Shown: positions 16,314 through 56,256, numbered from the stretch's first letter. The stretch is 64,000 bases of DNA from Sulfuritalea sp. (GCA_020853215.1 JADYZH010000075.1:1-64000), one strand, 5' to 3'. A program made the numbers and translations. The notes: generated from the letters alone by a model not told the origin.

Positions 16314-16379
16314 CTACGTAGAATCCGCAGTTTGCCGCGTAATTCCCGGATACACAAGATTCGACCTCTTTGCGACGAT
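16314..16379 (+). promoter_or_regulatory. 66-nt repeated leader element, copy A (upstream of cheR)
   Basis: Starts with the palindrome CTACGTAG, then AATCCGCAGTTTGCCGCG and ends CTTTGCGACGAT. It aligns without gaps to five other copies. It is 122 bases before the chosen cheR start and oriented with cheR. It contains an AGTTT and GGATAC arrangement loosely like a sigma-28 promoter. The hairpin ATATC-AGAA-GATAT follows at 16401-16414. Confidence 0.8.
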
Positions 16380-16501
16380 GGGGGCACAGGTTCAGGATAG
16401 ATATCAGAAGATATTTAACCCGAATTTTAGCTGCGTTTTACCGAATCGTGTGTGGCGCAGCTGTCAGGAACATCCGCAACTCTCGGCGTCTGCAAAACCT
16501 C

Positions 16502-17323
16502 ATGGCTGCCAACGAACATCCCGACATCAGCAACGCCGAGTTTGCCCAGTTCCAGAAGCTGATCTACAAGATCGCGGGGATCAGCCTGGCCGACAGCAAG
16601 AAGGTGCTACTGGTCGGCCGCCTCGGGCGGCGGCTGAAGCATTATCAGCTGACGAGCTTTGCCGACTATTACCGCCTTGTCGCCAGCGGCACGGCGGCCG
16701 ACGAGTTGCAGACGATGGTCGACCTGCTCACCACCAACGAGACCTATTTCTTTCGTGAAGAAGCGCATTTCGAGTTTCTGGCGAAGACCATTCTCGCCCA
16801 GCACCCAGCCGGCCAGCCATTCAATATCTGGAGCGCGGCCTCATCCACCGGCGAGGAAATCTATACGCTCTCGTTCGTGCTGGCCGACACGCTGGGCCTG
16901 GACGCGCAATGGAACATCACCGGTTCGGACATTTCCACCGCCGTGCTGGCCACGGCGGAGCGTGGCCTGTACTGGCTGGACCGGACCCGTGGCCTGCCTC
17001 AATCCTACCTGCGAAAATACTGCCTGAAGGGCGTACGCAGCCAGGAAGGCGGCTTCATGATCGCTCCCGAGATCAAGCGCCACACCAAATTCATGCAGGT
17101 GAATCTCAACCAGCCCCTGCCTGCGATGGGCAAGTTCCATGTGATCTTTCTGCGCAACGTGATGATCTATTTCGACGCCGAGACCAAGCGCCAGGTGGTG
17201 TCCCGACTGGTCGAGCAACTGCTTCCCGGCGGCTACTTCATCGTTGGCCACTCGGAAAGCCTCAACGGCCTGACCGACACGCTGCGGCCCGTCAAGCCCA
17301 CCATCTACCGGTTACCTGCGTAG
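16502..17323 (+). CDS. cheR: Chemotaxis protein methyltransferase CheR
   Basis: A 273-residue CheR if ATG 16502 is used (MAANEHPDISNAEFAQFQKL). The track ORF extends to 16370, but that part overlaps repeated element A and is not CheR-like. No strong Shine-Dalgarno is visible for either start. The N-terminal helical domain is followed by the SAM-binding domain with WSAASSTGEEIYTLSFVLAD and the CheR motif FHVIFLRNVMIYFD. It methylates glutamates on MCPs using S-adenosylmethionine. cheB follows after 9 bases and cheD after that, so the three adaptation enzymes form an operon probably expressed from the element A region. Confidence 0.95.
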   Translation: MAANEHPDISNAEFAQFQKLIYKIAGISLADSKKVLLVGRLGRRLKHYQLTSFADYYRLVASGTAADELQTMVDLLTTNETYFFREEAHFEFLAKTILAQHPAGQPFNIWSAASSTGEEIYTLSFVLADTLGLDAQWNITGSDISTAVLATAERGLYWLDRTRGLPQSYLRKYCLKGVRSQEGGFMIAPEIKRHTKFMQVNLNQPLPAMGKFHVIFLRNVMIYFDAETKRQVVSRLVEQLLPGGYFIVGHSESLNGLTDTLRPVKPTIYRLPA

Positions 17324-17332
17324 GCCACCCGC

Positions 17333-18412
17333 ATGGCAAACAAAATAACGGTAATGATTGTCGACGACTCGGCAGTCGTGCGCCAGGTGAACCGCGAAAC
17401 CCTGGAGCGCGAGCCCGACATCGAAGTCATCGGTGTCGCCGCCGATCCGCTCTATGCGCTTGACAAGATGAAGGTGCAGTGGCCGGACGTGCTGGTAATC
17501 GACATCGAAATGCCGCGCATGGATGGCCTTACCTTTCTCAAGAAGATCATGAGCGAGCACCCGACGCCGACCATCGTCTGTTCCTCGCTCGCCGAAAAAG
17601 GCGCCGCGGCAACCATGGACGCGCTGGCGGCGGGCGCCCTGGCCATCATCACCAAGCCGAAGGGTGGGGTAAAACAGTTCCTGCAGGACTCGGGGAACGA
17701 TCTGGTGTCGGCCGTGCGCGCCGCTGCGCGCGCCAACATGCGCCGCGTCACTCCCGGCGCCGCCCGGCCACTGGCGCCGCCACCCAAGCTCAGCGCCGAT
17801 GTCATGATGGCCGCGCAGGCGGCCAGCACCCGTGCCATGGCCAATACCACCGACCGCGTAGTCGCCATCGGCACATCCACCGGAGGCACCCAGGCACTGG
17901 AAGCCGTTCTCACCCGATTGCCGAATGTCGGTAGCGGCATCGTCATCGTCCAGCATATGCCCGAGAAATTTACCGCCATGTTTGCCGAACGCCTGAACAG
18001 CCTGTGCAAGCTGGAAGTGCGCGAAGCGAAGAACGGCGACCGTGTCATGCCGGGACGTGCGCTGATCGCCCCCGGCGGCCGTCACATGATGCTTCGGCGC
18101 AGCGGCGCGCAGTATTTCGTTGAAGTCGCCGATGGCCCCCTGGTGAACCGCCACAAGCCATCCGTCGACGTCCTGTTTCGTTCCGTGGCACAGATCGCCG
18201 GACGCAATGCGATGGGCGTGATCATGACCGGCATGGGCGACGACGGCGCGCGCGGCATGAAGGAAATGCACGATGCCGGCGCCCAGACCGTTGCCGAGGA
18301 TGAATCGACCTGCGTGGTATTCGGCATGCCCAAGGAGGCGATCAAACTCGGCGGAGTCGACCGGGTCGTGCCTCTCGATAGCATTCCAGCCGAAATCATC
18401 GCATACCGCTGA
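17333..18412 (+). CDS. cheB: Protein-glutamate methylesterase CheB
   Basis: A 359-residue CheB with an N-terminal REC domain ([29 protein letters not shown]), a linker of about 40 residues, and a catalytic domain containing the Ser in [12 protein letters not shown], His in [10 protein letters not shown] and Asp in [11 protein letters not shown]. It demethylates and deamidates receptor glutamates when phosphorylated by CheA, acting against CheR in adaptation. It starts 9 bases after cheR. It is the only CheB in the window despite two CheA kinases. Confidence 0.97.
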
Positions 18413-18443
18413 TGGCCAGCCGGCCCTGACAGACGACGACACC

Positions 18444-19034: not shown

Positions 19035-19103
19035 ACGATGCCATGAGCGCCGGTCAGCGCCAGTTTCAGCCCTGCCACGTTCCACCACCCGGAGGATGAA
19101 GTC

Positions 19104-19949: not shown

Positions 19950-19970
19950 TTGCCAGCGAAGTCACCCACC

Positions 19971-20036
19971 CTACGTAGATACCGCAGTTCGCCGCGTAAT
20001 TTCCGGATGCACAAGGTTCGGCCGCTTTGAGACGAT
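19971..20036 (+). promoter_or_regulatory. 66-nt repeated leader element, copy B (upstream of haem-type MCP)
   Basis: CTACGTAGATACCGCAG at the 5' end and CTTTGAGACGAT at the 3' end, collinear with the other copies. CAAGG and CTTTG can pair across 8 nt. The next gene starts 79 bases downstream. A GCCCG-CAATTTTA-CGGGC hairpin (20064-20081) sits between the element and the start. Confidence 0.82.
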
Positions 20037-20115: not shown

Positions 20116-21819
20116 ATGACACCGTACGGCAAGAACAACCCTCATTCTCTGGCAAGCAGGCTGTTTCTGGCAGCTGGGTGCGTGACACTGCTGATCATGG
20201 CCGCGCTTGCATGGAACGGACTTGCACTGAAAAATGCCGCACTTGAGCAATCCGGCTTGTCTGCTGCCCGCGCCGCGCTCGCAAGCGCGGCAAATTCGCG
20301 CATGTTCTATGCCCGTGAAATAGTACCCAAGGCAACAACCAGGGGCCTCGGCATCCACCACGAGTTCAAGGACAAGGAAGATGCGATTCCCGTACCCGCC
20401 TCCTTGATCGGCGCCCTTGCGGATTCCGACAAATCGGGTAATGGTTTGCGGCTCTACTCGAAGTACCCCTTCACTTTCCGCACGGCGGCGAAGGCGCGGC
20501 TGGACGCATTCGAAGAAGAAGCGCTGGCCTGGCTGGAAAAGAATCCCAAGGGCGAGTTCTACCGGATCGAAAGCCGGGACGGCCAGCCGTTCATGCGCCT
20601 GGCCACCGCAGACATCATGGTGAACGATACCTGCGTCAACTGCCACAACAGTCACCCCGATTCGCCCAAACGCGACTGGAAGGTCGGCGACTTGCGCGGC
20701 GCACTGGCGGTTTCGATTCCTGTCGGGGTCGTCGAAGCACAAATTGTCAGCCGCTTCCAGTGGGTTGCCGCCATCCTGGCACTCTGCTTTGCTTTGGGTG
20801 CGGTGATCATTTTCCTGGTCGTACGCAGTGTCTGTCGCTCGCTCGAAAACATCGCGGATGCGGCGGAACATGTCGTTGCCAGCGACGACTTCACCCGCGC
20901 CGCACCAGAGACCGGAACGCTGGAAACGATCCGGGTCGGCCAGGCGCTCAATCACTTGCTGCAGAAATTCCGCGGCATCATCGCCGATGCCAAAACGTCC
21001 GGCGACGCCATAACCGATGCTTCGCGCGCCCTGGCGACCGCCAGCGAGCAGGTGACGCGTAGTTCGGCCACCCAGTCGGACGCATCGTCCGCGGTAGCAA
21101 CCGCCGTCGAAGAAGCGTCGGTCAGCGTGAGCGAAACGGCGGCCAATGCGCAAAGTACAAATGAAATCGTCGGCAAGGCCCGTGCCGGCATCGAACGTGC
21201 GCTGACGGTCATGTCCGACACGGTGACCAACGTCAATGGAATTGCCAGCCTGATTCGCGAATCGGGCACCAGTGTCGGACTGCTGGACCAAAGCTCGAAG
21301 CAGATTGGCGGCATTGTGCAGGTGATAAAGGAAATTGCCGATCAGACCAACCTGCTGGCACTGAACGCCGCCATCGAAGCGGCACGCGCCGGCGAACAGG
21401 GCCGCGGCTTCGCGGTCGTTGCCGACGAAGTAAGAAAACTTGCCGAGCGCACGTCGCAGGCGACCCAGGAAATCGCCGGTCTGATCGGCGAGATTCAGAC
21501 TCAGATCGGCGACACGGTGATCGGCATGCAGCAGGCCAATGAGCAGACGGCGAAAAGCCTCACCCTGGTGGGCGCCACGGAAACCGCGTTGCGTGGTATT
21601 GACCAGAATTCGGGCGAGATGGCGATGAACGTACAAGGCATCGTCGACGCCCTTCGTCAACAGGACATGGCGATCCAGCAAGTGGCGTCGAACATCGAAC
21701 GAATCGCCCGCATGACGGAGGATAACAGCGCCGCCGCGGCATCCAGCAGCGATACGGCAGTCCAGCTGGATGTCATGGCCAACCGCCTGCGTGACTCGGT
21801 GGCCCGATTCCGTGCATGA
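20116..21819 (+). CDS. MCP with periplasmic CxxCH (haem c-like) sensor domain
   Basis: A 567-residue receptor starting at ATG 20116 ([15 protein letters not shown]) rather than 20089. A membrane helix near residues 18-38 is followed by a periplasmic domain of about 170 residues containing [24 protein letters not shown] is a c-type haem attachment motif and the surrounding sequence resembles the Tll0287/DUF3365 sensor family. A second membrane helix ([19 protein letters not shown]), HAMP and MCP domain ([20 protein letters not shown]) follow. It probably senses redox state or a gaseous or haem ligand (inference). Copy B of the 66-nt element lies in its leader. Confidence 0.92.
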
Positions 21820-27184: not shown

Positions 27185-30100
27185 TTACGCGTCCGACGCA
27201 GACAGCCAGAGCAGCAGGATCCGGTAGAAAGCCTCGGGGTTGACCGGTTTGGTAATGAAATCGTTCATGCCCGCCTCCTCGCAGGCCAGACGGTCCTCGT
27301 CGAAGGCATTGGCGGTCATTGCCAGGATCGGTGTGGTCGCCCGGCCCGGCAGCTTACGGATGGCACGGGTAGCGTCGATGCCATCCATGATGGGCATCTG
27401 CATGTCCATCAGGATCAGATCGTAATTGCGCGCTTGCGCCTTCGCCAGCGCCTCGCGGCCGTCGACCGCCGTGTCCACGGTCAATCCTGCGCCATGCAGC
27501 AATTCCAGCGCCACTTCGCGGTTGACCGGATTGTCCTCGGCCAGCAGCAGCCGCGCCGCGCCGTGATTGCGGCGCAATTCCATCTCGGCATTGGTGGCCA
27601 TGGTCGCGGCGGCCGAGGGCAAGGCGCCGTGCCCGCGTCGCAGACGCGCCGTCAACCAGAAGACGCTGCCCTCCCCCGGCGTACTGTCGGCGCCGACTTC
27701 ACCACCCATCAATTCGGCCAGCCGCCGGGTGATTGCCAGGCCGAGACCGGTGCCGCCGTACTTGCGGGTAGTCGAGACATCGACCTGTTCAAAAGCATGG
27801 AACAACAGGGCCATCTTTTCAGGCGCGATGCCGATGCCGGTGTCCTCGACCTCGAAGCGTACCAGCAATTCTTCGCCGTCTTCCTCCATCAGCCTGGCAC
27901 GCAGGATAATGGCGCCTCGTTCGGTGAACTTGACGGCGTTGCCGGCGTAGTTGAGCAGCGCCTGGCGCAGCCGCGTGGGATCACCGCGCAGCCATGGGGG
28001 AACCTTGCCGTTGTCGACATCGATGCGCAGTCCCTTGTCCTGCACCGCACCGCCAAACATGGAGGCAACCGTGTCGAGGATGGAGGAGAGCGGAAAATCG
28101 ATACTTTCCAGTTGCAGCTTTCCGGCGTCGATCTTGGACAGGTCGAGGATATCGTTGATGATCGCCAGCAGATGCCGTCCGGCACCATCGATCTTCTCCA
28201 GCCGCACGATCTGCTCCGGCGTCGCTCCGGCCTGCCGCAAGAGGTGTGTCAAGCCGATGATGGCATTCATCGGGGTGCGGATCTCGTGGCTCATGTTGGC
28301 GAGGAAGCTGCTCTTGGCCAGATTGGCCGCTTCGGCCTGCTGGCGCGCGGCGACCAGTTCGCTCGTGCGCTGGGCCACCAGATGCTCCAGATGCTGCCGA
28401 TGGCCATCCAGTTCCATGGCCAGACGCTTCTTCTCGGTAATGTCCTCCTTCACCGCAACGTAGTGACCGATCGCTCCGTTCGACTGGCGCAACGGCGTGA
28501 CGATGGCGAATTCGATATATTCGCTGCCATCCTTCCTGCGGTTGTGGAACTCGCCTTTCCAGGGCAGGCCCCGGGCCATCGCATGCCACATCGCCACATA
28601 GGTCTCCGGCGGCGTCCTGCCCGTTTGCAGGATGCGCGGATTCTGGCCAATCACCTCCTCGCGGCTGTAGCCGCTGGCCTGGACGAAGGCTTCGTTCACA
28701 TACTCGATTTCGGCGTTCACATTGGTGATGATGACGCTCTCCGGGCTTTGTTCGACGACCTGCGAGAGCTTGCGCAGCTGCTCTTCGACGGCCTTGCGAC
28801 GGGTGATGTCGCGAATCACAGCCGTATAGAAACGTCCCTGGGGGGCATGCCACTGCGCCAGCGAGAGTTCGAGCGGAAACTCGCTGCCATCCCTGCGCAG
28901 GCCATACAATTCAACCAGCACGCCCATCATGTGCGACTCGCCACCGAGATTCACGTGGTTCATCCCCGCCGCATGCGATCCACGGAAGCGCGTCGGCATC
29001 AGCAGCGTCAGCGGCTGCCCGACGACCTCGTTTGCCGGGTAGCCGAAAACGGTTTCGGCGCCCCGGTTCCATTTGACGATCATCCCCGAACTGTCGGCGG
29101 TGACAATGGCATCGTGGGCCGATTCGGATACAGCACGGAAAAGCGCCTCGCTCTCGCGCAGCGCTTCCTCCCTCTGCGACAGGACGTTCAACAAGCGGTT
29201 GAAGCCACCGATCAGTTCGCCAAGTTCATCGGGTCTGGCTACGGGCAAAGGCTGCGGGGCCAGGTTCGAATCCGACTGGGCAACCAGCGTTCTCGCCGCG
29301 GAAAGCATCGGCGAGAGCTGGCGCCTGAGCATCCACGAGGTCGCCCACCAGGTAATGCCGCCGATCAGCAGGGTCAGGAAAATCGTGGCGGCAAGCATGC
29401 GCTGCTGCATGGCCTGAATCGGGGCAAAGGCTTCCGCGGTGGGCAGCACGGTCACCAGGAACCAGCCCGCCGCGGGAATACCCTTGGCCGCGGACAACTC
29501 CTCCACGCCGCGCGAATTCACGGCAACGCCATGGCCCTCATAGCCCTGCATGTATTTGTCGTGCATGGCATTGATGCCCTGGGCGGGGATCGGTTGCAGG
29601 ATGCGGCCCTTGTCCGTGGCGGTAACGAACAGCTGATGCCGAGGATCAATCACCAGATAGCCGCCGGACATGCCATAACGGCTTCCCACAATCCTGTCAA
29701 GAAAATTGGGCTTGCCCAGATTGATCGCCCCGACCAGGGCGCCGATCACCTTGCCCCGGCCATCGCGGATGGGCACTGCCATGCCGATCACCGGCGCCCG
29801 CAGCACCTTGCCCATGACCGGACGGCCAATGGTCGCCTTGCCTTCCTTGATGGCGCCGACCATGTAGTCCCTGTCCACGTAATCGGCACTTAGTCGCTCC
29901 GCCGAGAGCGGAACACTGGCCATCGCCTTTCCATCCAGCCCGGTAATCCGTGTGCCGCCATTGAACAGCATCTGGAAAATCCGGCGCTGCTCCAGGAATG
30001 CCTGCAAAGCCCGTTCATTGCCGATGGCGGCCGGGTCAAGGGTTGCCGCAACTTCTTCGAGCACCCTCAAGCGATGCTCGATTTCATGATTCACGTCTGC

Positions 30101-30274
30101 GGCCATGAAAGAAGTCGACGAGAACTGCTGTTCGCCCTGCAAGCGCCGCATGTCCTCCTGCAACATCCTGACGGCATAGAACACCAGCAAGCAGACGCTG
30201 ACCAGGAATATGGTCAGCGTAAGGAGGGTGATTCTGACTTTGAGCGAGCGAGGTGCGCGAACGGTAAACGCCAT
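27185..30274 (-). CDS. Cache-domain hybrid histidine kinase (Cache-HAMP-PAS-PAS-HK-REC)
   Basis: A 1029-residue hybrid kinase. The start ATG 30274 ([14 protein letters not shown]) has AAGGAGGG 5 bases upstream and is preferred over 30313. A transmembrane helix, a double-Cache-like periplasmic sensor (to about residue 295), a second helix ([20 protein letters not shown]) and HAMP lead to two PAS domains, HisKA ([20 protein letters not shown]), HATPase ([16 protein letters not shown]) and REC ([19 protein letters not shown]). There is no C-terminal HPt, so it needs an external one. Element copy C lies 29 bases upstream. It is convergent with cheA. Confidence 0.94.
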
Positions 30275-30303: not shown

Positions 30304-30369
30304 ATAGTCTCAAAGCGGCGGAACTTTGTCCACATGGGAGTTACGCTGCCCGCTGCGGAATCTACGTAG
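30304..30369 (-). promoter_or_regulatory. 66-nt repeated leader element, copy C (upstream of Cache kinase)
   Basis: Read on the - strand it begins CTACGTAGATTCCGCAG and ends CTTTGAGACTAT. It is the most divergent copy in the middle: the sigma-28-like GATAA is lost, but the spacing is unchanged. CAAAG-N8-CTTTG can pair perfectly. It sits 29 bases before the kinase start codon. Confidence 0.78.
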
Positions 30370-33879: not shown

Positions 33880-35007
33880 TCAGCCTGGCTGGCAGAGCAG
33901 GACAGGATTGGTTTCGCCCGCCACGGCCATGCGCTCGAGGGCATCGACTACGCCAAAGCTGGCCTCTTCCATACGGCCGATCGCCTCGACGCCGCCCGGA
34001 ATGTCGCCGCCGCGCAAGCCTTCCAGCGCTTCCCTGCCGGCTCGGTGCACGGCGGCGTGGGGAGCATCCATCTCGCGATATCCGGGCAGCCTGGAGTAGC
34101 ACTCGCGCCCCTCGCCGGCAAAGTACCACTGGCCGAGGCGGCATTGGGTGTGATCGGAGATGTCCCCGACGCTCTTGTCGTTAAGACCGAAAAAAGCCTT
34201 GTATATCTCGAACTTGAACAACACATGGTCCATTTTTGCCACTTCGACGAAACTCCGCAGCGTGGAGGCGGCGATGGCCTGCTCCATCAGTGTCGCCAGG
34301 CCAAGCAGCCGCTGCATGTTCTCCGTCGCCGATCCGCCTTCGACGCTGGCGCGCCTGGCTTCCGCCGCCAGAGCCGTCATGCTCTCGGTGGCGCTGCCGG
34401 TGTCGGTGCCGATCTGGCCGACCAGCGAGGAAATCTCGGCCGTGGCATTGGCCGTCCGCTCGGCAAGTTTCCGCACTTCGTCAGCCACCACGGCAAAGCC
34501 GCGCCCCTGCTCGCCGGCGCGGGCGGCTTCGATGGCGGCGTTGAGCGCCAGCAGGTTGGTCTGGTCGGCTATTTCCTTGATCAGGTTCACGATGCCGACG
34601 ATTTTCGTCGCCCGTTCGCCCAGCACGGCGACACTGCCGGTGGCCGCTGCGGAACGCTCCGACAACCGCGCGAGGTCACCCGAGATGCGATCGATAGCGC
34701 TGCGGCTGACTTCTGTGACGCCGAAGGTTTCGATGGCGTTGCCGCGCTCGGTATTCATGGTTTCCGCGAGCCGGGCGAGACTCTGTTGCGAAAGGCCGAT
34801 GGATGTGCCAAAGCTGTCCAGATGTTTCATCAGACGCTGATACGCATCGAGGCGGATTTCCAGCTCGCCTGCCCTGTCGGCATGCGTGGCGACCAGCGAC
34901 TCGAGCGAGGCAATGCGGGATTGTGCAGCTGCTTCGGCCTGCCGGCTCTGCTGTAGTTGCGACCTGACCTGCTCAAGTTCATGGCGAATGGCGGAACCGA
35001 AAAACAT
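33880..35007 (-). CDS. Soluble MCP with C-terminal CZB zinc-binding domain
   Basis: A 375-residue cytoplasmic receptor with no membrane segment. An N-terminal coiled coil is followed by a signalling domain ([20 protein letters not shown]) and a C-terminal CZB domain: [31 protein letters not shown] and MDAPHAAVH supply the conserved His/Cys zinc ligands. This is the TlpD-like arrangement, which senses oxidants, hypochlorous acid or zinc in known members. ATG 35007 has AGGAG 7 bases upstream. Element copy D and a perfect hairpin lie in its leader. Confidence 0.93.
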
Positions 35008-35107: not shown

Positions 35108-35173
35108 ATGGTCTCAAAGGGACAGGGGTTTGTTTATCCGTGAATTGCGCGACAAACTGCGGTATCTACGTAG
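35108..35173 (-). promoter_or_regulatory. 66-nt repeated leader element, copy D (upstream of CZB MCP)
   Basis: On the - strand it reads CTACGTAGATACCGCAG, then GTTTGTCGCG, GGATAAACAA and CTTTGAGACCAT. It is 100 bases before the MCP start. The region from 35174 to 35404, between this copy and the + strand kinase, shows no gene or other element that I can recognise. Confidence 0.83.
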
Positions 35174-41717: not shown

Positions 41718-41894
41718 ATGGAGTCCCTTAGCAAAACTGGTTCCCGCAAGAAGCGGCAATTTTTGCCGGTATATCGGCCACCCACTTCCTTGTTTGCAGG
41801 CCTAGATTCTGCCATCATCGCAACACATGGTCCTTCCGTCTGTCACCCCCAAGCCGCCAACTGCTCCCGTGCCGGGTGCGCAGGTCGCGCCTGA
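41718..41894 (+). CDS. Possible 58-aa small ORF ahead of the flagellar kinase
   Basis: An ORF too short for the track (MESLSKTGSRKKRQFLPVYR...). It has a perfect AGGAGG 5 bases before its ATG (CTAGGAGGAAAGTATG). It overlaps the first 68 bases of the kinase gene at 41827 in another frame; that kinase has no visible ribosome site. It may be a leader peptide that couples translation of the kinase. No family is recognised, and the overlap with the fliF promoter makes chance a real alternative. Confidence 0.35.
   Translation: MESLSKTGSRKKRQFLPVYRPPTSLFAGLDSAIIATHGPSVCHPQAANCSRAGCAGRA
41730..41745 (-). promoter_or_regulatory. Candidate sigma-54 promoter for fliF
   Basis: Read on the - strand, GGGAACCAGTTTTGCT has the GG-N10-GC spacing of a -24/-12 promoter, with TTTGCT matching the -12 box well and GGGAAC the -24 box less well. 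It lies inside the small + strand ORF at 41718. fliF is a sigma-54/FlrC target in related polar-flagellum systems. Confidence 0.55.
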
Positions 41895-43029
41895 AGAAGC
41901 GCTTCGCCTAGCTGAAGCCTTTCGAATTTTCAGTCAGGCGTCGGAGGAATTAAGCGGCGCCTACAGCAAATTGCAGAGCCATGTGGAGCAGCTTAGCGAT
42001 GAGCTGGCGGCTGCCAATGGCGCCCTGCGCCAGCAGTATCAGGAGAAGGCCGCCTTGACCGAACGCCTGAGCCTGTTGCTCGACGCATTGCCCGCCGGTG
42101 TGGTGGTGCTTGACGATGCCGGTAGCGTGGTGCAGTTCAATCCGGCCGCCAGCAATTTTCTGGGTGACGTAAAAGTCGGCGCTGACTGGGCGGCGATTTA
42201 TGCCAAGACGCTGGTACCCGACGCTACGCCCGGCGAGTTTCTCGGCGGCGAGCGGCACTTGGCGGTCGACGTGACGCCGCTTGATTCCACCGGCGGCCGC
42301 ATTGTCCTGCTGCATGACATTACGGAGGCACAACTGCTGAAAACCCAGGCCGAACGCAATCAGCGTCTGGCAGCGATGGGCGAAATGGCGGCCCAACTCG
42401 CGCATCAACTGCGCACACCGCTGGCCGCTGCGCTGCTCTATGCCGGCAACCTGCAAAATGCCGAACTGGCCGCGGACAATCGTGCCGCCATCGCGGAAAA
42501 GACCGTGGCCCGCCTCAAGCACATCGAACATCTGATTCAGGACATGCTGTTGTTTGCACGCGGCGAAGCGCTCGGCCGCGAACGTTTTACCGTGACCGAT
42601 CTGTTCGTCGAACTGACGCAGAATTTCGAGCCACTGGCCCAAAACAACGGCGTGCGGTTTATCGTGACCGACAAGAGTGCGGGAACGTGGCTCACTGGCA
42701 AGCGCAAATCGCTGGTCAGCGCGCTGACCAGTCTGCTGGAAAACGCGCTGCAGTCCGTCGAGGGGCAGGAAGACCGGTGCATCGAGATTTCCGCCCGACG
42801 CGAAGAGAGTACCTTGTTGCTTGCGGTAAAGGATAACGGTCGCGGCATGGACAATGCCACTGCCGCCCGTTTGTTCGAGCCTTTTTACACCACGCGCAGC
42901 GATGGTACAGGCCTCGGCCTCGCGATCGCGCGCGGTGTGGCGCGCGCCCATGGTGGCGGCATCGAAGTCATCTCCAACCCCAGTGCCGGTGCCGAATTCA
43001 TCCTCAGTCTGCCATGCCCGAAAAACTGA
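41827..43029 (+). CDS. flrB: Flagellar sensor histidine kinase, FlrB/FleS-like
   Basis: A 400-residue soluble kinase. An N-terminal coiled coil (AFRIFSQASEELSGAYSKLQ) and a PAS-like domain (ALPAGVVVLDDAGSVVQFNP) resemble FleS/FlrB. HisKA has MAAQLAHQLRTPLAAALLYA, followed by a GHKL ATPase ([28 protein letters not shown]). It probably phosphorylates the adjacent NtrC-type regulator to activate sigma-54-dependent flagellar genes. An in-frame TAG at 41803 excludes any longer start, so ATG 41827 stands despite lacking a Shine-Dalgarno. It overlaps the next gene by 16 bases. Confidence 0.9.
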   Translation: MVLPSVTPKPPTAPVPGAQVAPEEALRLAEAFRIFSQASEELSGAYSKLQSHVEQLSDELAAANGALRQQYQEKAALTERLSLLLDALPAGVVVLDDAGSVVQFNPAASNFLGDVKVGADWAAIYAKTLVPDATPGEFLGGERHLAVDVTPLDSTGGRIVLLHDITEAQLLKTQAERNQRLAAMGEMAAQLAHQLRTPLAAALLYAGNLQNAELAADNRAAIAEKTVARLKHIEHLIQDMLLFARGEALGRERFTVTDLFVELTQNFEPLAQNNGVRFIVTDKSAGTWLTGKRKSLVSALTSLLENALQSVEGQEDRCIEISARREESTLLLAVKDNGRGMDNATAARLFEPFYTTRSDGTGLGLAIARGVARAHGGGIEVISNPSAGAEFILSLPCPKN

Positions 43030-44429
43030 ATATCCTGGTCGTCGAGGACGACGATGCACTGCGCGATGCACTACAAGTCACGCTGCAGGCTGCCGGCCAT
43101 GACGTCGGCAGTGTTGATGGCGGCCCTGCGGCACTGGAAGCCCTGCGACGCAAGGCATTCAACATGGTCGTCTCAGACCTGCGCATGAGTCCGATGGATG
43201 GACTCACCCTGCTCGGTGAAATCCGCGTCCGGCATCCCGGCTTACCGGTCTTGCTGATGACGGCCTTCGGTGATGTCGACAAGGCGGTGGCTGCGATGCG
43301 CGGCGGGGCCTGCGATTTTATGCTGAAACCTTTCGAGCCGAAGGCGCTGATTGACCAGATTGCCCGCTATGCAACGCCTCCGGCACCAGCCGCCGGCGTC
43401 ATCGCCGTCGATGCCCGGACGCGAGACACCCTGCTGCTTGCCGCACGTGTGGCGCGAACCGATGCGACGGTGCTGCTGACAGGCGAGTCCGGTGTCGGGA
43501 AGGAAGTATTCGCGCGCTATATCCACGATCAGTCGGCACGCGCGACGGGCATTTTCGTGGCCATCAATTGCGCTGCGATTCCAGACACCTTGCTTGAAGC
43601 CACGCTTTTCGGTTACGAGAAGGGCGCGTTCACCGGCGCGCTGACCGCCCAGGCAGGCAAGTTCGAACAGGCCAACGGCGGCACCTTGCTGCTCGACGAA
43701 ATATCCGAAATGCCACTGGGTCTGCAGGCCAAGCTGTTGCGGGTGCTACAGGAGCGCGAGGTGGAACGCGTCGGCGGCAAGAAACCGGTACCGCTCGATA
43801 TCCGCATCCTGGCTACCTCCAACCGCGACATGGCTGGTGAAGTGCGTAAGGGACGGTTTCGTGAGGATTTGTTCTACCGGCTTAACGTGTTTCCGCTTGA
43901 GATTCCGCCACTGCGCGAGCGTCCGGGCGATATCGTGCCGCTGGCACGAAAAATTCTGGCACAAATGGCCGCAGCGGCACGGCGTGTGGCAGGATTTGCC
44001 GCTGCGGCCGAAGCACGGCTTCTGGCGCATTCTTGGCCGGGCAACGTACGCGAACTGGAAAACGTCGTCCAGCGCGCACTGATTCTCGAACCGGGTGAGG
44101 TGATCGAGGCCGAGGGTTTGCGCCTGGACTTCAAACCGGCCGTGCCATCGGCGGCGACATCCATGGCAGCGAATGCGCCGCCCGGCACCGCCCAACCCTT
44201 GTCACCAGGGTGCGTCCCCGCCGCAACCGACGTTGAAACCCCCGTCACAGCAGGCGTTCCCGCCGACATGAAAACGCTCGAGCGCCTGCATATCCAGGAA
44301 ACCCTGGCCAGTGTTGGGGGATCGCGCAAGAAGGCCGTGGCAATCCTCGGTATCTCGGAACGCACACTGCGGTACAAGCTGAACCAGTATCGCGAAGAAG
44401 GATTGCTCAATGAACGTGAAAATGATTGA
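43014..44429 (+). CDS. flrC: Sigma-54-dependent flagellar response regulator, FlrC/FleR-like
   Basis: A 471-residue NtrC-family activator. REC: VVEDDDALRDAL, MVVSDLRMSPMDG, MLKPFEP. AAA+ domain: Walker A GESGVGKEVFARYIH, the sigma-54 contact loop EKGAFTGAL, and LLLDEISEMP. A Fis-type helix-turn-helix is at the C-terminus (LASVGGSRKKAVAILGISER). It activates sigma-54 promoters, and a near-perfect one lies directly downstream before fliE. Its start overlaps the kinase gene, so the pair is an operon. No FlrA/FleQ homologue is in the window. Confidence 0.93.
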   Translation: MPEKLNILVVEDDDALRDALQVTLQAAGHDVGSVDGGPAALEALRRKAFNMVVSDLRMSPMDGLTLLGEIRVRHPGLPVLLMTAFGDVDKAVAAMRGGACDFMLKPFEPKALIDQIARYATPPAPAAGVIAVDARTRDTLLLAARVARTDATVLLTGESGVGKEVFARYIHDQSARATGIFVAINCAAIPDTLLEATLFGYEKGAFTGALTAQAGKFEQANGGTLLLDEISEMPLGLQAKLLRVLQEREVERVGGKKPVPLDIRILATSNRDMAGEVRKGRFREDLFYRLNVFPLEIPPLRERPGDIVPLARKILAQMAAAARRVAGFAAAAEARLLAHSWPGNVRELENVVQRALILEPGEVIEAEGLRLDFKPAVPSAATSMAANAPPGTAQPLSPGCVPAATDVETPVTAGVPADMKTLERLHIQETLASVGGSRKKAVAILGISERTLRYKLNQYREEGLLNEREND

Positions 44430-44819: not shown

Positions 44820-45076
44820 TTCCGCCTCACAACCAAGCCGTTGCGGACGATAATACTGGTCGGATTCACTGGTGCAGCCGGCCGGCCCAGCGACTCCTGT
44901 GATGCGCCTCCGGCGTCCCCACCGCGGTACTCGCCGCGTTCTGTACGGCCCGACTAAAGAATTTCGGTTCGCTGCCGTAGTTGGAATAGCTCCAAAGCGA
45001 AGTTTCAGTGGAGATGGGCGGCCGCTCTGTCGACGTCAAACGTTGTGGCCGCGACCAAAATCGGAAAGCGAGAATC

Positions 45077-46639
45077 ATGTCTGCGATGAGCGTGGCGTTC
45101 ATGCCTTGGGTGGGCCTGTTTCTACTGGTGCTGCATGGCACCGCCGTTGCCGGTGGCTGGCAGAAGGTTGTCGTCGGCAAAAGTGAAATCATCGAGATCG
45201 ACACGACCAGCATCGCGCATGCGGATTCGGGCGTCACCGCCTGGAGCCGCATCACACTCGATCACACGGTCAGGGATGCAGGCGGCGTCTTTGATGCGAT
45301 ACATGCGCAGAATCTCTATGACTGCACGGGGCGTCGCTTCACCACTCTGCGTCGCGCGTATTTTAATGGTGACGCGCTGGTACGCGAGGTTGTAGTTTCG
45401 CGGCAGCGAGCAAACACGGTACAGGTCGGCAGTATCGACGAACGCTTGTTCAGTCTGGCCTGCCGTGTCGCCACGGCAGGCGACACGCTCGCATCCGCAG
45501 ATTCCACCCGCAGATCGAACGACGAGGCTTCGCATGGCGAACCAGGCGGACGTCCTGCGCCAATGCACGCAGATATGCGGACACCCAGGGCCGACCATTC
45601 ACCACCCCGGCTGACGCCGGTTGCCGATACCACTCCGGTGGCACCGTCCGAAAAGCCAAAACTGATCGTCCTGCCACCGATCGACAAGGCCGCTGCGGAC
45701 AAGGCTGCCGGGAGCATCGGGCAAACGCCGGCCATGGTGCCTGCACCGACAACAGCCAGGGTAGATCCCGCCGCGCCAGACAAGGTGCCTGTGCCGACCC
45801 TGTCGGCGACCAAGCGGAACGTCGACCGACAGGAGGTCGAAAGCAAGGCTGACAAGCGTCTGCGGGAGTTGCACTACGCCACGTCGGGCCCGCGTAAGGT
45901 GACAAAGAAAAAGTTGCCGGCGGAGCCGTCCGCGGCCAGCGGCCAAGAAAACACCGCGCGTTTGCACGGCCACTGGTCTTACGAAGGCGATAGCGGGCCC
46001 GCTCACTGGGCCAGACTGCGTGGCGACTATGCCACCTGCGACACGGGAAAGCGCCAGTCGCCAATCGATATTCGCGAGGGCATAAAGGTCGATCTCGAAA
46101 GCATCAAGTTCGATTACAAGCCTACGCAGTTTCGCATCATCGACAACGGTCATACGCTACAAGTCAGTGTCGGCGAGGGACTTGGATTGACGGTGATGGG
46201 CAAACGCCATGAGTTGCTGCAATTTCACTTCCACCGTCCGTCCGAAGAGCGGATCAATGGCCGCAATTACGACATGGTGGTGCACCTGGTGCACAAGAAT
46301 GCCGAAGGCAGGCTGGCGGTCGTCGCCGTACTCCTGGAAAAAGGCAGCGAGCATCCGCTGATCCAGACGCTTTGGAACAATCTACCGCTCGAACAGAATA
46401 TGGAAGTGGCGCCGGAAGAGTCCATCGACCTGAACAAATTGTTGCCGGAAAACCGCTCTTACTGGACCTACATGGGATCGCTGACCACCCCGCCGTGCAC
46501 CGAAGGGGTTTTGTGGATGGTGCTGAAGCAACCGGTGCAGTTGGCGGCGGAACAAGTAGCCATCTTCTCGCGTGTCTACCGGAACAACGCCCGTCCGCTG
46601 CAACCGGCGAACGGTCGACTTGTCAAGGAATCGCGGTGA
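45077..46639 (+). CDS. Secreted alpha-carbonic anhydrase fused to an adhesin E-like domain
   Basis: A 520-residue exported protein. Using ATG 45077, a signal peptide (MPWVGLFLLVLHGTAVAGG) precedes an N-terminal domain of about 100 residues (WQKVVVGKSEIIEIDTTSIA ... YDCTGRRFTTLRRAYF) resembling the surface-adhesin E family. A Pro/Ala-rich linker leads to an alpha-type carbonic anhydrase domain with RQSPIDI, zinc ligands in LLQFHFHRPSEE and MVVHLVHKNAEG, and SLTTPPCTEGVLW. All catalytic His and Thr residues are visible, so it should hydrate CO2 in the periplasm or outside. Its place beside fliE is unexpected for a metabolic enzyme. Confidence 0.9.
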   Translation: MSAMSVAFMPWVGLFLLVLHGTAVAGGWQKVVVGKSEIIEIDTTSIAHADSGVTAWSRITLDHTVRDAGGVFDAIHAQNLYDCTGRRFTTLRRAYFNGDALVREVVVSRQRANTVQVGSIDERLFSLACRVATAGDTLASADSTRRSNDEASHGEPGGRPAPMHADMRTPRADHSPPRLTPVADTTPVAPSEKPKLIVLPPIDKAAADKAAGSIGQTPAMVPAPTTARVDPAAPDKVPVPTLSATKRNVDRQEVESKADKRLRELHYATSGPRKVTKKKLPAEPSAASGQENTARLHGHWSYEGDSGPAHWARLRGDYATCDTGKRQSPIDIREGIKVDLESIKFDYKPTQFRIIDNGHTLQVSVGEGLGLTVMGKRHELLQFHFHRPSEERINGRNYDMVVHLVHKNAEGRLAVVAVLLEKGSEHPLIQTLWNNLPLEQNMEVAPEESIDLNKLLPENRSYWTYMGSLTTPPCTEGVLWMVLKQPVQLAAEQVAIFSRVYRNNARPLQPANGRLVKESR

Positions 46640-49526: not shown

Positions 49527-49592
49527 CTACGTAGATACCGCAGTTTGTAGCGTAATCCACGGATAAACAAAGCCGAGTCTCTTTGGGATCAT
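49527..49592 (+). promoter_or_regulatory. 66-nt repeated leader element, copy E (upstream of GGDEF gene)
   Basis: CTACGTAGATACCGCAG, then GTTTGTAGCG, GGATAAACAA and CTTTGGGATCAT. CAAAG-N8-CTTTG can pair perfectly. It fills the centre of a 309-base gap and lies 180 bases before the GGDEF start. Similarity to copy F continues downstream through CTCCATGGGAAGCGAA. A 48-codon ORF starting at that ATG has no Shine-Dalgarno. Confidence 0.82.
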
Positions 49593-49772: not shown

Positions 49773-51569
49773 ATGGCTGAGCCCGGCAAACTTTCCGAAC
49801 TTGAAATCGCCCGCGAAACCCTGCGCAGTCTCGCATCGAGAAAAATACCCCCGACGCCTGACAATTACAGGGCCTTGTATTTCGAAATATCCGGCGCACC
49901 GGTCACTGCGTCCTTTCCAGCGCAGGAGTTCAAGGCACTGAACGCGGCCTTGCCGCGCACTACCCCGGAGCAAAATCGTTTCACCCGTCAGCTGGAAACC
50001 GCGATTGCCAAGGGAACATGGGAAGGGGTAGGCGCGGTACTGACCGACTTGCTGACCAAATTCGGCAGCGACCAGCCGCACTGGCCGGGCTTGATTCGCG
50101 ATCTGGTGCAACAACTTGAAGCGCATACTGCCGGCCTGACCGCCGCCCGAAAGAAGGAAGCGCTGGAGCATGTCCTGTCGGGTTCGGGAAACTCCGATCT
50201 TCTGCTCAACCGCCTGCAGTCATTGATTCGCTCCTGGAGCCAGAATCCCGCAGGTAGCGGGCCTGCCGTACTGGCCACACAGGGAGCAGACCTGGAAGCG
50301 ATCGTTAAGGCACCCGCTGCGACGCCATCCGCAACGAACCGGAAACCACTGCTCCAGCCGGTCTGGCAGGGTGGCATCGTCGATCTGCGAGAGATCATCG
50401 CCCAATTGCTCGACAATACCCTCTCGATAGTCTTGCGCGACAAACCCGAGCTCGCCAGCGAGGCAAACCAGATTGCAGCCAGCGTGCGGGCCGCGCAAAA
50501 CGCCGAAGCACTGATTGGCCTCTCGGAGCGGCTGAAGAAACTCTGCTACCGGGCCCACTTCATCGCCGAAGATCAGGCCGAGTTGAGCAATGCCCTGCTT
50601 CATCTGGTCCAGCTGATCGTGGAGAACATCGGTGAACTGGTGGTCGAAGATCAGTGGCTGACGGGTCAGATCAAGGTGGTGCGCGACCTGTTTCTTCAGC
50701 CACTCGACTTGCGCAGGCTGGATGATGCAGAACGCCGGATGAAGGATGTCATCGTAAAGCAGAGCTCGCTCAAGAAGAGCCTGAAGGAGGCTAACGACCG
50801 CCTCAAGCTGATGCTGATGACATTCGTAGACCGGCTGGCCGACTTTTCCGAGACGACCAGCGAATATCACGGCAAGATCGAAAGCTGTTCGGAGAAAATC
50901 AGTAAAGCCAAGGACATTTCCGAGCTCACCGACGTGCTGGGCGAGGTCATGCGCGAAACCCGCGTGATACAGATCAACACGGCGCGCTCACGCGATGAAT
51001 TGAACGTCATGCGCAGCCAGGTGAGCGAGTCGGAGCAGATAGTTGCCCGCCTGCAGAATGAACTCTCGCACGCCAGCGAACTGGTCCGGCACGACATGCT
51101 GACCGGGGCGCTCAATCGCAAGGGCCTGGACGAAACCATGGAAAAGGAAATTGCCCGCCTCCGACGCCAGGGCGGAACGCTCAGTCTGGCGCTGCTCGAT
51201 GTCGACAATTTCAAAAAGCTCAACGACACCATGGGACATTCCGCGGGCGATGCCGCGCTGGTGCATCTGGCTGCGGTCGTCAAGGAAGTGGTGCGCCCCG
51301 ACGATACACTGGCGCGTTACGGCGGCGAAGAGTTCGTCGTGCTGCTGCCCAATACCTCAAGCGAGGAAGCCGTTACCGTCATGAAACGCGTCCAGCGCGA
51401 GCTCACGCGAAACTTTTTCCTGCACAAGAACGACAAGGTCTTGATCACTTTCAGTTGCGGAGTAGCGGAGTTAGCCAATGAAGAAGAACCCTACGACGCC
51501 CTGAAGCGAGCCGACGCCGCGATGTATCTAGCCAAGCGCGCAGGCAAGAATCGGGTCATACCGTCGTAG
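49773..51569 (+). CDS. Diguanylate cyclase (GGDEF) with long helical N-terminus
   Basis: A 598-residue cytoplasmic protein. About 430 N-terminal residues are helical and of no family I can name (ARETLRSLASRKIPPTPDNY at the start, coiled coil near 350-430). The C-terminal GGDEF domain has DMLTGALNRKGLDETMEKEI, the active-site motif RYGGEEFVVLLP and KRADAAMYLAKRAGKNRV. The inhibitory site RPDD lies five residues before GGEEF, so product feedback inhibition is likely. It makes c-di-GMP, opposing the HD-GYP proteins. Element copy E lies in its leader. Confidence 0.94.
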   Translation: MAEPGKLSELEIARETLRSLASRKIPPTPDNYRALYFEISGAPVTASFPAQEFKALNAALPRTTPEQNRFTRQLETAIAKGTWEGVGAVLTDLLTKFGSDQPHWPGLIRDLVQQLEAHTAGLTAARKKEALEHVLSGSGNSDLLLNRLQSLIRSWSQNPAGSGPAVLATQGADLEAIVKAPAATPSATNRKPLLQPVWQGGIVDLREIIAQLLDNTLSIVLRDKPELASEANQIAASVRAAQNAEALIGLSERLKKLCYRAHFIAEDQAELSNALLHLVQLIVENIGELVVEDQWLTGQIKVVRDLFLQPLDLRRLDDAERRMKDVIVKQSSLKKSLKEANDRLKLMLMTFVDRLADFSETTSEYHGKIESCSEKISKAKDISELTDVLGEVMRETRVIQINTARSRDELNVMRSQVSESEQIVARLQNELSHASELVRHDMLTGALNRKGLDETMEKEIARLRRQGGTLSLALLDVDNFKKLNDTMGHSAGDAALVHLAAVVKEVVRPDDTLARYGGEEFVVLLPNTSSEEAVTVMKRVQRELTRNFFLHKNDKVLITFSCGVAELANEEEPYDALKRADAAMYLAKRAGKNRVIPS

Positions 51570-51634: not shown

Positions 51635-51656
51635 TCAGAATCCGGAACAACCTCTC

Positions 51657-54600
51657 CTACCGGTGGTCCCGGCTGAGCGCCTTCAGCAGGGTCGCGAACA
51701 GCGCGTCCGGATTGAAGGGTTTGGCAAGAAAGTCAGTCATCCCTGCCTCGAAGCAGCGGGCCTGGTCCTCGGCAAATGCGTTGGCTGTCATGGCGATGAT
51801 CGGTGTGTCACGGTAGCCGATCATTTCACGAATCTGCCGCGTCGCCTCCAGGCCGTCGACGTTGGGCATCTGCATGTCCATGAAGATGACCGCATAGCAG
51901 GTCTCCTGCGCCAGAGTGACCGCTTCGGCGCCATCTTGCGCCGTGTCGATCACCAGACCGAGATCCTCCAACAGCATCCCGGCCACTTCCCGGTTCACCG
52001 GCTCGTCGTCGGCCACCAGAATGCGATAGCCTTGGAAACGCTGCCGGATCTGCGCTTCGGCATCGAGGTTCGGCGCTTGCGGTGCAGCGGTGGTGGCAGA
52101 TTTTTTCAGCCGCGCCTCGAACCAGAAAGTGCTGCCCGCCCCCGGCGTGCTGTCAGCGCCGACTTCGCCGCCCATCAGTTCGGCCAGCCGCCGCGTAATG
52201 GCCAGCCCGAGTCCGGTGCCGCCATATTTGCGCGTGGTCGAATTGTCAGCCTGCTCGAAAGCCCCAAAGAGCCGGGGCATGATCTCGGGCGGGATACCGA
52301 TGCCGGTATCCTCAACTTCGACGCGCACCCGCACCGATTCGGCGGTCTCCTCCCCCTTGCGGATACGCAGCGTCACGCTACCCGTTTCGGTGAACTTGAT
52401 GGCATTGGTGGCATAGTTGAGCAAGGCCTGCTGCAACCGCGTCGGATCGCCCACCAAGTTGGGCGGCAAGGGTTCTGTCTCGATCAGCAGGCGCAGGCCC
52501 TTGGCCGCGGCGCGTTCCGAAAGTAGCGTGCGGACATTGTCCAGAAGGCCGTCGAGGAGGATGGGCACCTCCTCCAGCGAGAACCTCCCGGCCTCGATCT
52601 TGGAAAGGTCGAGGATGTCGTTGATGATGGCCAGCAGGTGCTGGGCCGAGGCGTCGATGATGTCCAGGCGCCCTGCCTGCTGAAGCGTCACACCGCTGCG
52701 GCGCAGGATATGAGCCATGCCCAGGATGCCATTCATCGGGGTGCGGATTTCATGGCTCATGTTGGCCAGGAAGGCGCTCTTGGCGCGGTTGGCGGCTTCG
52801 GCCTGGAACTTGGCCAAGGTCAGGGACTGGTTTGCCGTTTCGAGGTCGGCGGTACGCGCAACGACACGCGCTTCGAGATCGGCGTTGAGCCTTCTGATCT
52901 CGGTCTCGGCACGCCTGCGCTCGGTAATGTCGCGACTGATGACAACCAGCCCCTCACGCCCACCCTGCTGGTCATAGATCGGCACCCTCCTCACCTCAAA
53001 ATCGTGCAAGCGACCGTCATCAGCGACAATGGCCTCATACGCCAGGGTCAACCGGCCGGCCTCCCACGCCTTTTCGTCATCCGCCAGGCCGGTTTCATGC
53101 ATGGAGCGGAACTCCGGATGCAGCTCGGCCAATTCCATTTCGGATTTTTCCTGCCAGGGAATGGCGTGCAACCGGTACAGGCGCCTGGCAGCTTCATTGG
53201 TAATGATCCACCGACTCTTTCCATCCTTGAAGAAAATGGCATCCGGGATGGCCTCGATCAGGGCACCCAGAGACTTGTGGGAGAACGCCAGATCCATCTC
53301 GCTCTGCTTGCGCTCGGTAATGTCGATGTAGCTGGTGATAAAGCCGCCACAGGGCAGGGGCATGCCGCGAATCTCCAGCACCGTACCGTTGGCGCACATC
53401 CGCTCGAACAGGTGCGGCTGGAAATTGCGGGCACGGGCGACGACGGCTGCGACTATCTGCCCGGTATCGCCGGGACCGTACTCGCCGCGCTCGGCGTTGA
53501 AGCGGATGATGTCCTCGAAATGCACCTCCGGCTTTTCAAACAGCGCATCGGACAAGTCCAGCAACTGCTTGAACTGGTTGTTGTATATGACCAGGCGCAA
53601 GCCAGCGTCGAACACCGATATGGCGCCAGGAAAATTCTCGATGATGGCGGTAAGCAGGTTGTTCTGCCGCAGCAGCTTCTCCTCGATGTTCTTGCGTACG
53701 GTGATGTCGGCGATTACGCCGATGAGACCACTTTCCTTGCCATTGGCGTCGTGGAAAGGCCTCCCCGTCAGATGCCCCCAGAATTCAGTTTGGTCGGTGC
53801 GCCAGTAGTGACTGTCCAGATCCACCGAGGGAATGGCGCCTGACAGCAACTCACTCATCTTCTGCCGACCGGCATCGTGCTCCGACGGGTGAACAAGGGC
53901 GGCATACTCGCTTCCCACCAATTCATTGAGCGCACGTCCGAACATCTCGGCCATGCGCCGGTTGGCTCGCGTGATCCGCCCTTCCTTGTCAATCAGGAAG
54001 ATTGCCACGCTGGACGTATCGAGAACCTGTTTGAGCAAGGCTTCGCGTCCCGCCAGATCGTCATTGGCCCTTCCCAGCGCCTGCGTGCGCTCGACGACCT
54101 TATGCTCAAGCTCCCCCTGGTGGGCCCGCAACTTCGCCACCAGTATCGCGACAGACGTCAGCAACAGGCTGAAGATCAGGCCGAACACGGACTTTAGCCA
54201 GAACCAGAGCGGATCACCCCAGCCCTTGATGGGCGCGACGCTCAGGGTCCAGTTACCATAGGCCAAGTCCAGGTTCTGCTCCACGGGTGCGACCAGGGCA
54301 GCGGACGACGAGGTGGCGATCACCTGCTTCTGCCCGCTATCAGGATGAATGCGCCAGAGTTCATAATCGATTCCCTGCTCGACCAGCTGCGGCAAGCGGG
54401 CACCCACCAGCGCCTCGGGGAAGCGGATCACGACGTAGGTGAATCCCCAGAAGTAGCGCTTCCCCTTTGCATCACTCAGAAACACCGGCAAGCGCCCGAC
54501 GGCACCGAGACCGCCTTGCACCAGATTCATCGGGCCGGCCAGGGTCAGTTTTCCGGTATCCCGGGCGATCGCGGCCTCCTTGTCCTGCACTGGATCGTTC

Positions 54601-54983
54601 AATTGGTCGAAACCGATGGACTTTTCGTTACCGGTCAGCGGCACGACCTGCCGAATGATGCCTCCGGGCGAGATTCCCAAGGCAGAGACACCCGGATAAA
54701 ACCGCAGCATCTCGCTGGCAACTGCATCAAACTCGGGGATGTTCCCGTTCCCATGGCGAACAAGTGCGGCCATGGCGTAGGTGGCGGATAGTGACCGTTC
54801 GATAGTGGTCTCAAGTGCGCGCGAATGGTCTTTGGCCAAACCGGCAATGCGCGCTTGTTCCTCCCGCAGGTTGTGTTGCTCGGAATGCCAGATCACGCTC
54901 GCCGCAACTGCCGCGGCCGCCAGGAATACGGCTGCCGCCATGACCAGCAAACGCTGGCTGCGTGGATGGGAATTGGCGTTCAT
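51657..54983 (-). CDS. CHASE-domain hybrid histidine kinase (CHASE-PAS-PAS-PAS-HK-REC)
   Basis: A 1108-residue membrane kinase. An N-terminal helix ([20 protein letters not shown]) and a second near residue 270 ([19 protein letters not shown]) flank a CHASE-like periplasmic sensor ([38 protein letters not shown]). Three PAS domains follow, then HisKA ([20 protein letters not shown]), HATPase ([16 protein letters not shown]) and REC ([19 protein letters not shown]). There is no HPt. ATG 54983 has only a weak ribosome site. About 215 bases without a recognisable gene separate it from the next - strand gene, whose stop is upstream of it. Confidence 0.94.
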
Positions 54984-55198
54984 ATGGATTTCATGATGGC
55001 CCGAGAGCCGAATGTTTCAGCCGCTTCAACTTGCAAGATTCGGCATATTCAAACGAACCGCACCGAGTATCCGGGACATCGATACCTCCGTCAATTGCCT
55101 GTTTTTGACTGCAAATTCCGGAGAAATCCTCATGCCGTCCCGACAGCGCTCCGGGCCATATGCGGCGGGATTCCTCACCTTTCACGACGTGCATGATT

Positions 55199-55954
55199 TC
55201 AATTGAATGGTCGCTTGATAGCCGGAGGAACCGGCAAGGTCGGCAAACTTGGCGGCGTCGGCGATATTGGCAGCGTTGGCAGGGTCTGGAAAGCCGGCTT
55301 CGGATGGGCTCCAAAAACGGCCATCCACAGCTCACCTGCATGTGGATATGAAACCGCTGGCGGATCGGACGGAAGCCTTGCTTCGTACTGGTTGGCCCAG
55401 GCTGCCGCGTTTCCGTATGCGGTTCGCCAATTATGGATCACCTGGGCGATAACGTCGTCCTTTGCCGGTACTTGCATCCCACATACCCGGGCCTGGTCCT
55501 CCCTGTCCAAACCCATCGCACGATTCATTTCATTCAGCTCTTTCAGACCTTCACATCCGTCTCTTACATCCAGCTCGGTCATCGCAACGAGTACCCCAAC
55601 GCCGATGTAGGGGATAGAAGTCCCGGCCATCGCCGAAACATTCCGGGTAACGTTCCTGGAAATCCGGTGCGCCAAATTCGACGACAGCTTTCTTCCGGCA
55701 GTGTTCGCAACCAGAACTGTTTGCCGCAACTGCTCAGCCCTTGCTTCGAGATCCCGATTGACTTTCTCCAGTTCCAGAATTCTCTCCTCGAGTTCCATAC
55801 TCACTTTTTCCAATGCAGCATATCTTTCTTCAAGGCTCACTGTCGCGGGATCGAGGTCTGCAATGGCAGTCGCTGACGTAGCAGCCTCCTGTGCCTGGGC
55901 CAAATTGCTGATTGCGAAAATACAGGCTGCCAGGACCGCGATACGCATCGTCAT
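55199..55954 (-). CDS. Secreted coiled-coil protein of unknown function
   Basis: A 251-residue protein using ATG 55954 (MTMRIAVLAACIFAISNLAQ; ATG 55948 is equally possible). The track ORF extends to 56311 through element F and is not credible there. A signal peptide ending near AQAQEA is followed by a coiled coil (SLEERYAALEKVSMELEERI, residues about 40-85), a Gly/Ala segment (GTSIPYIGVGVLVAMTEL) and a Pro-rich C-terminus with TLP/SPTPP repeats. I recognise no family. It lies immediately before the fliH block on the opposite strand. Confidence 0.7.
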   Translation of the reverse strand: MTMRIAVLAACIFAISNLAQAQEAATSATAIADLDPATVSLEERYAALEKVSMELEERILELEKVNRDLEARAEQLRQTVLVANTAGRKLSSNLAHRISRNVTRNVSAMAGTSIPYIGVGVLVAMTELDVRDGCEGLKELNEMNRAMGLDREDQARVCGMQVPAKDDVIAQVIHNWRTAYGNAAAWANQYEARLPSDPPAVSYPHAGELWMAVFGAHPKPAFQTLPTLPISPTPPSLPTLPVPPAIKRPFN

Positions 55955-56190
55955 GGCGTCACGCAAAAGTATGCATCGCTTTGCCGATGACAGAAGCGAT
56001 GTGGCCTTGATATCGATAATTGGTACTGCGCGCGTCCCGGTCACCATATTCGCCGCCTTCATATTCGGACAAGTGATTGTCCGCGGTCCGTCCAGTCGAT
56101 GGCGCAATGCAGCCGACATCGACGATAAGGCAAGTCCTGACCCGCAATGCGTGATGGGCGCCCCGTCCCCATGCCTCTTCTGCCCCGTGC

Positions 56191-56256
56191 CTACGTAGAT
56201 ACCGCAGTTTGTCGCGTATTTCACGGATAAACAAAATACCACCCCTTTGAGAGTAT
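56191..56256 (+). promoter_or_regulatory. 66-nt repeated leader element, copy F (upstream of fliH)
   Basis: CTACGTAGATACCGCAG, GTTTGTCGCG, GGATAAACAA and CTTTGAGAGTAT, gapless against the other copies. It lies in a 454-base gap between the divergent secreted protein and fliH, 152 bases before the preferred fliH start. It continues into CTCCATGGGACGCGAA, shared with copy E. The rest of the gap shows no other recognisable feature. Confidence 0.83.

Follow-up and report, generated by a model that had tools for sequence, protein, structure and literature searches.

FlhDC of Escherichia coli recognizes a box with the core AAATA(A/G)CG and acts just upstream of the -35 region at sigma-70 promoters. 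For the response regulator FixJ, SELEX motifs (GTAMGTAG and GTAGTTTCCC) and footprints extending from -69 to -44 and from -57 to -31 have been reported (PMC4999443), and the R. palustris PfixK promoter contains the sequence GTACGTAG (PMC13327599). Regulators of this type have also been connected with motility: in Burkholderia dolosa, a fixLJ mutant shows less swimming and reduced expression of flhD, cheY and an MCP gene (PMC5234846), and AcfR, a response regulator of the NarL/FixJ family, promotes swimming motility of Azorhizobium caulinodans (PMC7945327).

The Sulfuritalea locus studied here, a stretch of 64,000 nucleotides (in the following referred to as the window), carries a 66-nt element. 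In some Sulfuritalea this element most likely serves as an on-switch of fixed length, a promoter plus binding site, that governs genes for swimming, chemotaxis and signalling. A first-pass annotation of this DNA had listed six copies; their coordinates and strands proved to be exact, and they align without gaps over all 66 nt. A seventh copy is present on the same contig (C75) beyond the window.

16314-16379, plus strand: element copy 1, between cheR and a response-regulator gene that diverges from it, at a distance of 66 bp from the start codon of the latter
19971-20036, plus strand: element copy 2, 5' of an MCP gene with a Tll0287-like sensor
30304-30369, minus strand: element copy 3 (copy C), centre diverged and both ends kept, 5' of a Cache/PAS hybrid kinase gene
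35108-35173, minus strand: element copy 4, 5' of a CZB-domain MCP gene
49527-49592, plus strand: element copy 5, 5' of a GGDEF protein gene, leader akin to the cheY cassette
56191-56256, plus strand: element copy 6, 5' of fliH, leader akin to the cheY cassette
82845-82910, minus strand: seventh element copy on contig C75, beyond the window, 5' of fliA

Pfam searches bore out the identities that had been assigned to the downstream genes (CheR, the Tll0287-like MCP, the dCache/PAS hybrid kinase, the CZB MCP, the GGDEF protein and FliH); the LuxR-type response-regulator gene beside copy 1 had been overlooked.

15612-16247, minus strand: orphan FixJ/StyR-like response regulator with REC and LuxR-type HTH domains, the proposed activator (Pfam, co-occurrence, PDB relatives)
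16502-17323, plus strand: cheR (Pfam), start set by ortholog comparison (MAANEHPDI...)
20116-21819, plus strand: MCP with Tll0287-like domain (Pfam)
27185-30274, minus strand: dCache/HAMP/PAS hybrid histidine kinase (Pfam)
33880-35007, minus strand: MCP with CZB domain (Pfam)
49773-51569, plus strand: GGDEF protein (Pfam)
56247-57086, plus strand: fliH open reading frame (Pfam), true start probably further in

A degenerate 44-nt pattern, built from five copies and covering the 5' part of the element, is matched by these five with 0 mismatches and was found 0 times in 100 dinucleotide shuffles; copy C lies outside this pattern because its centre diverges. With a sequence model of the full element, ten good copies (E 7e-16 to 7e-20) were detected in the 3.4-Mb draft genome, seven of them on the window's own contig of 98 kb, together with one degenerate copy at C75:94854 (E 7.5e-4). 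Contigs C167 and C168 each carry a copy 5' of cheY, and the start of the window (1-410) falls within the leader of a cheY-type copy. Since both window and contig begin inside a cheY leader, the assembly must have broken at this repeat; two short contigs possess near-identical element-cheY ends (first 240 bases of L034 and L035). Simple promoter and terminator scans were uninformative.

Scanning 84,980 species genomes by pattern yielded 83 stretches, nearly all of them from Sulfuritalea, Rhodocyclales or beta-proteobacterial MAGs. Within the genus (Sulfuritalea and relatives), 20 of the 31 genomes contain the element, with 1-14 copies each; S. hydrogenivorans sk43H probably does not possess the module. 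Among the genomes sampled from the rest of the order, neither element nor regulator was detected, bar one marginal element match. A contig filed under 'Ca. Accumulibacter necessarius' (JAFLDL010000034.1; L129, L086) encodes a 75%-identical regulator and carries two elements, one of them degenerate and located 67 bp from the regulator; cheB, HD-GYP and hybrid-kinase genes lie close by. The regulator occurs in 0 of 27 other Accumulibacter genomes, and misbinning of this MAG is possible, yet the linkage of regulator and element on the contig holds.

In the host and in related genomes, the genes behind the element encode CheY, CheR, chemoreceptors, PAS/Cache hybrid kinases, FliA and FliH, furthermore GGDEF, EAL, HDOD and HD-GYP proteins and FIST or Cache proteins; minor classes are some periplasmic binding proteins and one LuxR-type regulator, and some open reading frames have no Pfam match. 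The element had initially been proposed to be a shared cis-regulatory module, possibly a regulon-wide promoter, and this idea is supported by the relatives, in which the copies again face chemotaxis, kinase and c-di-GMP genes. Among the 59 copies with enough flank, the next gene lies on the facing strand in 54, as judged from simple composition-based gene calls to whose errors the five exceptions may be due, and the upstream neighbours are split into 32 facing versus 27 opposed. Open reading frames of at least 250 amino acids were present on the facing side in 45 of 57 cases versus 35 of 57 on the opposite side, so that the length of reading frames alone could not show a facing bias and the composition-based calls were used.

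Across 90 copies, most of the information falls within positions 1-44 and 56-66; positions 45-55 between them are variable. The invariance of positions 1-26 in the scan is not independent, since these were partly set by the search pattern; positions 58-66 did not belong to it, and here A62 (90/90), T66 (89/90), A65 (86/90), G59 (86/90) and T58 (84/90) are conserved. Read as a sequence pattern alone, 58-66 has the hallmarks of an extended -10, namely TGn with A at -11 and T at -7, and matches the sigma-70 form except for a G at -12. A G rather than a T at this position is unusual for sigma-70. TnnACA at positions 38-43, 17 bp upstream of the extended -10, is best read as the predicted -35. The initial description of copy C as varied in its centre with its ends kept was correct, and it extends to the -10 and to the ACA, both of which are retained. 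Of the 66-nt unit originally put forward, the fixed, gapless length stands; the notion of a uniform box gives way to a predicted operator joined to a core promoter.

In the predicted operator, CTACGTAGATTCC matches GTAMGTAG at 7 of 8 and GTAGTTTCCC at 7-8 of 10 positions (8/10 for the T variant) at overlapping places, a pair of matches that arose together in 31 of 20,000 shuffles. With a transcription start at about position 73, the operator would span approximately -72 to -36, in agreement with the FixJ footprints (-69/-44 and -57/-31). It also holds an imperfect dyad that is wider than a FixJ site, and a second factor may thus take part.

The regulator gene at 15612-16247 is transcribed divergently from cheR. 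Its product contains Response_reg (5e-20) and GerE (2.5e-16) domains; the acidic pocket, the acceptor Asp and the Lys typical of NarL/FixJ response regulators are conserved relative to FixJ and StyR, which are also its closest solved relatives in the PDB. The best NCBIfam model is NF006900 (FixJ; E 1.2e-53), with 181.7 bits versus a cut-off of 255, which classes the protein as FixJ-like and not as a FixJ equivalog. No FixL oxygen-sensor kinase is found adjacent to it: its neighbours in the window are cheR and an open reading frame (13953-15575) that is a putative MCP by its sequence and, by its place in the gene map, not a kinase.

An ortholog of this regulator is present in 18 of the 20 element-bearing and in 0 of the 11 element-free genomes (Fisher P = 9e-7, uncorrected for phylogeny). 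Full-length matches in the element-bearing genomes are 81-100% identical, and the recognition helix SQRTAETYRH is identical across all aligned orthologs; element-free genomes have just 40-44% paralogs, or nothing above threshold. The two element-bearing exceptions (G020 and G021) are fragmented MAGs. This co-occurrence is partly confounded with the presence of flagella, which most element-free genomes have lost as well; the two factors are separated only by G002 and G024, which are flagellated and lack both element and regulator. The element-free genomes occupy several separate places on the flhDC gene tree, so that element and regulator were likely lost jointly more than once. A comparison of 17 loci within the genus placed a copy 66-93 bp from the start of the regulator gene in 16 of them, the longer gaps reflecting in part an aligned start that differs from the true one; at the remaining locus the copy is present with its 5' end changed to CTACGTAT. 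In one genome with the regulator (G007), the regulator-adjacent copy is the sole strong copy.

We consider it probable that the element constitutes an entire promoter of rigid spacing that depends on an activator, its operator being worked by the adjacent FixJ/StyR-like regulator. Positions 1-37 (CTACGTAGATnCCGCAGTTTGtcGCGtAATTCACGGA) would serve as the operator for the protein encoded at 15612-16247 on the minus strand, and TnnACA (38-43), the 17-bp spacer and TGn-GAnnAT (58-66) would constitute the -35 and extended -10 of a promoter read by the housekeeping sigma factor, with a predicted start near position 73, about 6-8 nt past position 66. The phosphorylated regulator, bound just upstream of the -35, would act as an activator rather than a repressor, recruiting RNA polymerase and jointly turning on cheR, cheY, chemoreceptors, hybrid kinases, c-di-GMP enzymes, fliA and fliH.

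Co-occurrence and linkage alone cannot prove binding, and other genes could share the same profile. The same module might therefore be driven by a different, unlinked regulator, with the adjacent response regulator being just another target or a hitch-hiker. We hold this to be unlikely, given that the regulator-element-cheR linkage is conserved in the genomes examined, including G007 and the contig filed under another genus, and that the operator resembles a FixJ site in its sequence.

The dyad is also open to being read as an FlhD4C2 box (inverted CGTnnATnnCGC-N8-GCGnnATnnACG) that precedes a sigma-70 promoter, which would make the element an FlhDC class II promoter; flhD and flhC are present, and each half-site is similar to the E. 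coli core, the spacing being 10 nt. This assignment is rather improbable, since FlhDC, with about 95% identity throughout the genus, is kept in genomes without the element and without flagella. Flagellated G002, with a 97%-identical FlhC, shows no sign of the element over the 140 kb surrounding its flagellar genes and has no genome-wide element match better than E 0.1; a dyad scan of G002 found no FlhDC-like sites. The FlhDC box was rejected on this presence/absence pattern, flhC being found in 28 of the 31 genomes, element-free ones included.

A sigma-28 (FliA) promoter with one extra spacer base, as considered in the first-pass annotation, is very unlikely. The flagellar and chemotaxis targets would suit it, and CAGTTT ... 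GGATAA resembles TAAAGTTT-N11-GCCGATAA, but AGTTT and GGATAA are wrongly spaced, the hexamers differ, and the pair is missing from copy C and a subset of other copies that retain TG..GAnnAT. Canonical sites (TAAAGTTT-N11-GCCGTTAA and TAAAGTTA-N11-GCCGTAAA) precede flgM in G000 and G002, fliA itself is driven by one copy, and the conserved CTACGTAG and CCGCAG would be left without a role. Still less can be said for a structured leader RNA or riboswitch, the other suggestion made at the outset, which a constant, gap-free length ahead of thematically related genes, c-di-GMP enzymes included, might recall: a covariation check found 0 predicted pairs with compensatory change in either 10 or 64 sequences, Rfam has no family in the window, and conservation takes the form of an operator and a -10, with most of the element preceding the predicted start. 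Equally remote is a mobile repeat (REP or MITE-like) placed near these genes by chance, because, despite the copying evident from leader sequence common to several copies, 54 of 59 copies are turned towards a gene, signalling genes predominate among the targets, the boxes are fixed while the spacers diverge, and neither terminal inverted repeats nor a transposase came to light.

Four copies, those of cheY, fliA, fliH and the GGDEF gene, have a common leader sequence past position 66, and these leaders align far beyond chance. Between the element and fliA (L032 ~2630-2911; C75 ~82.63-82.91 kb) a remnant of a cheY start is preserved, and the fliH copy has a related ATGAGCA stretch. Aligned leaders and cheY start remnant together indicate that part of the regulon arose through the copying of a promoter-leader cassette; the other copies, which lack clear leader similarity, may be older or independent. 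That a genus-restricted, orphan FixJ-like master switch operates in parallel to FlhDC, FleR/sigma-54 and FliA, and that its regulon grew by copy-and-paste of a promoter-leader-start cassette (from cheY to fliA, fliH and the GGDEF gene), is a proposal for which we see evenly balanced prospects; if it is true, the sequence itself gives a direct reading of how a regulon expanded. The open PMC literature yielded no description of this module, and the regulon, which rests on a known principle, is apparently undescribed. The candidate regulator provides a testable activator for the control of motility and chemotaxis in environmental beta-proteobacteria, and the set is a rare clear case of a regulon built from promoter modules that are near-identical and rigidly spaced; it bears traces of cassette copying and was lost jointly with the regulator in several lineages.

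Some further features of these genomes deserve mention in their own right. The flhDC genes (L186:2027-2950; G000:C350), about 95% identical genus-wide, are retained in genomes without FlhA or FlgM; the keeping of highly conserved FlhDC in bacteria without flagella suggests another role beyond these organelles. GGCAA-N4-TTGCC-like dyads are present 5' of flgB (L031) and flhB (L032) here and in G002, the one at flhB of G000 being imperfect. They may be the enhancer for the sigma-54 activator of FleR/FlrC type whose gene lies at 43014-44429, within the region 41827-44429 of the window that was noted alongside them. Beside the flagellar genes, an open reading frame at 45008-46639 combines a eukaryotic-type carbonic anhydrase with an Adhesin_E domain.

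Compared with known systems, the predicted arrangement is like that of E. coli FlhDC class II promoters in that an activator box immediately precedes the sigma-70-type promoter of motility genes; unlike these, the element does not track the presence of FlhDC. AcfR differs in its alpha-proteobacterial host, and no defined operator or regulon module was seen in the passages covered (PMC7945327). The FixLJ system of B. dolosa is a parallel as a beta-proteobacterial case of FixJ-type control favouring motility; a point of difference is that there the effect includes lowered flhD expression in the mutant, and a passage search of that study turned up no multi-copy promoter element of the present kind (PMC5234846). 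A further counterpart is the FixJ-activated fixK promoter of Sinorhizobium, Bradyrhizobium and Rhodopseudomonas, with a REC plus LuxR-type HTH regulator of the same subfamily and an operator, at about -70 to -31 of the start, whose GTAMGTAG/GTAGTTTCCC motifs the predicted operator of the element resembles (PMC4999443, PMC13327599). In contrast to FixJ-fixK, the regulator described here is an orphan without an adjacent FixL, its putative operator occurs in up to 14 copies per genome, and the predicted targets are not fixK but chemotaxis, flagellar and signalling genes, served by a much more rigid 66-nt module.
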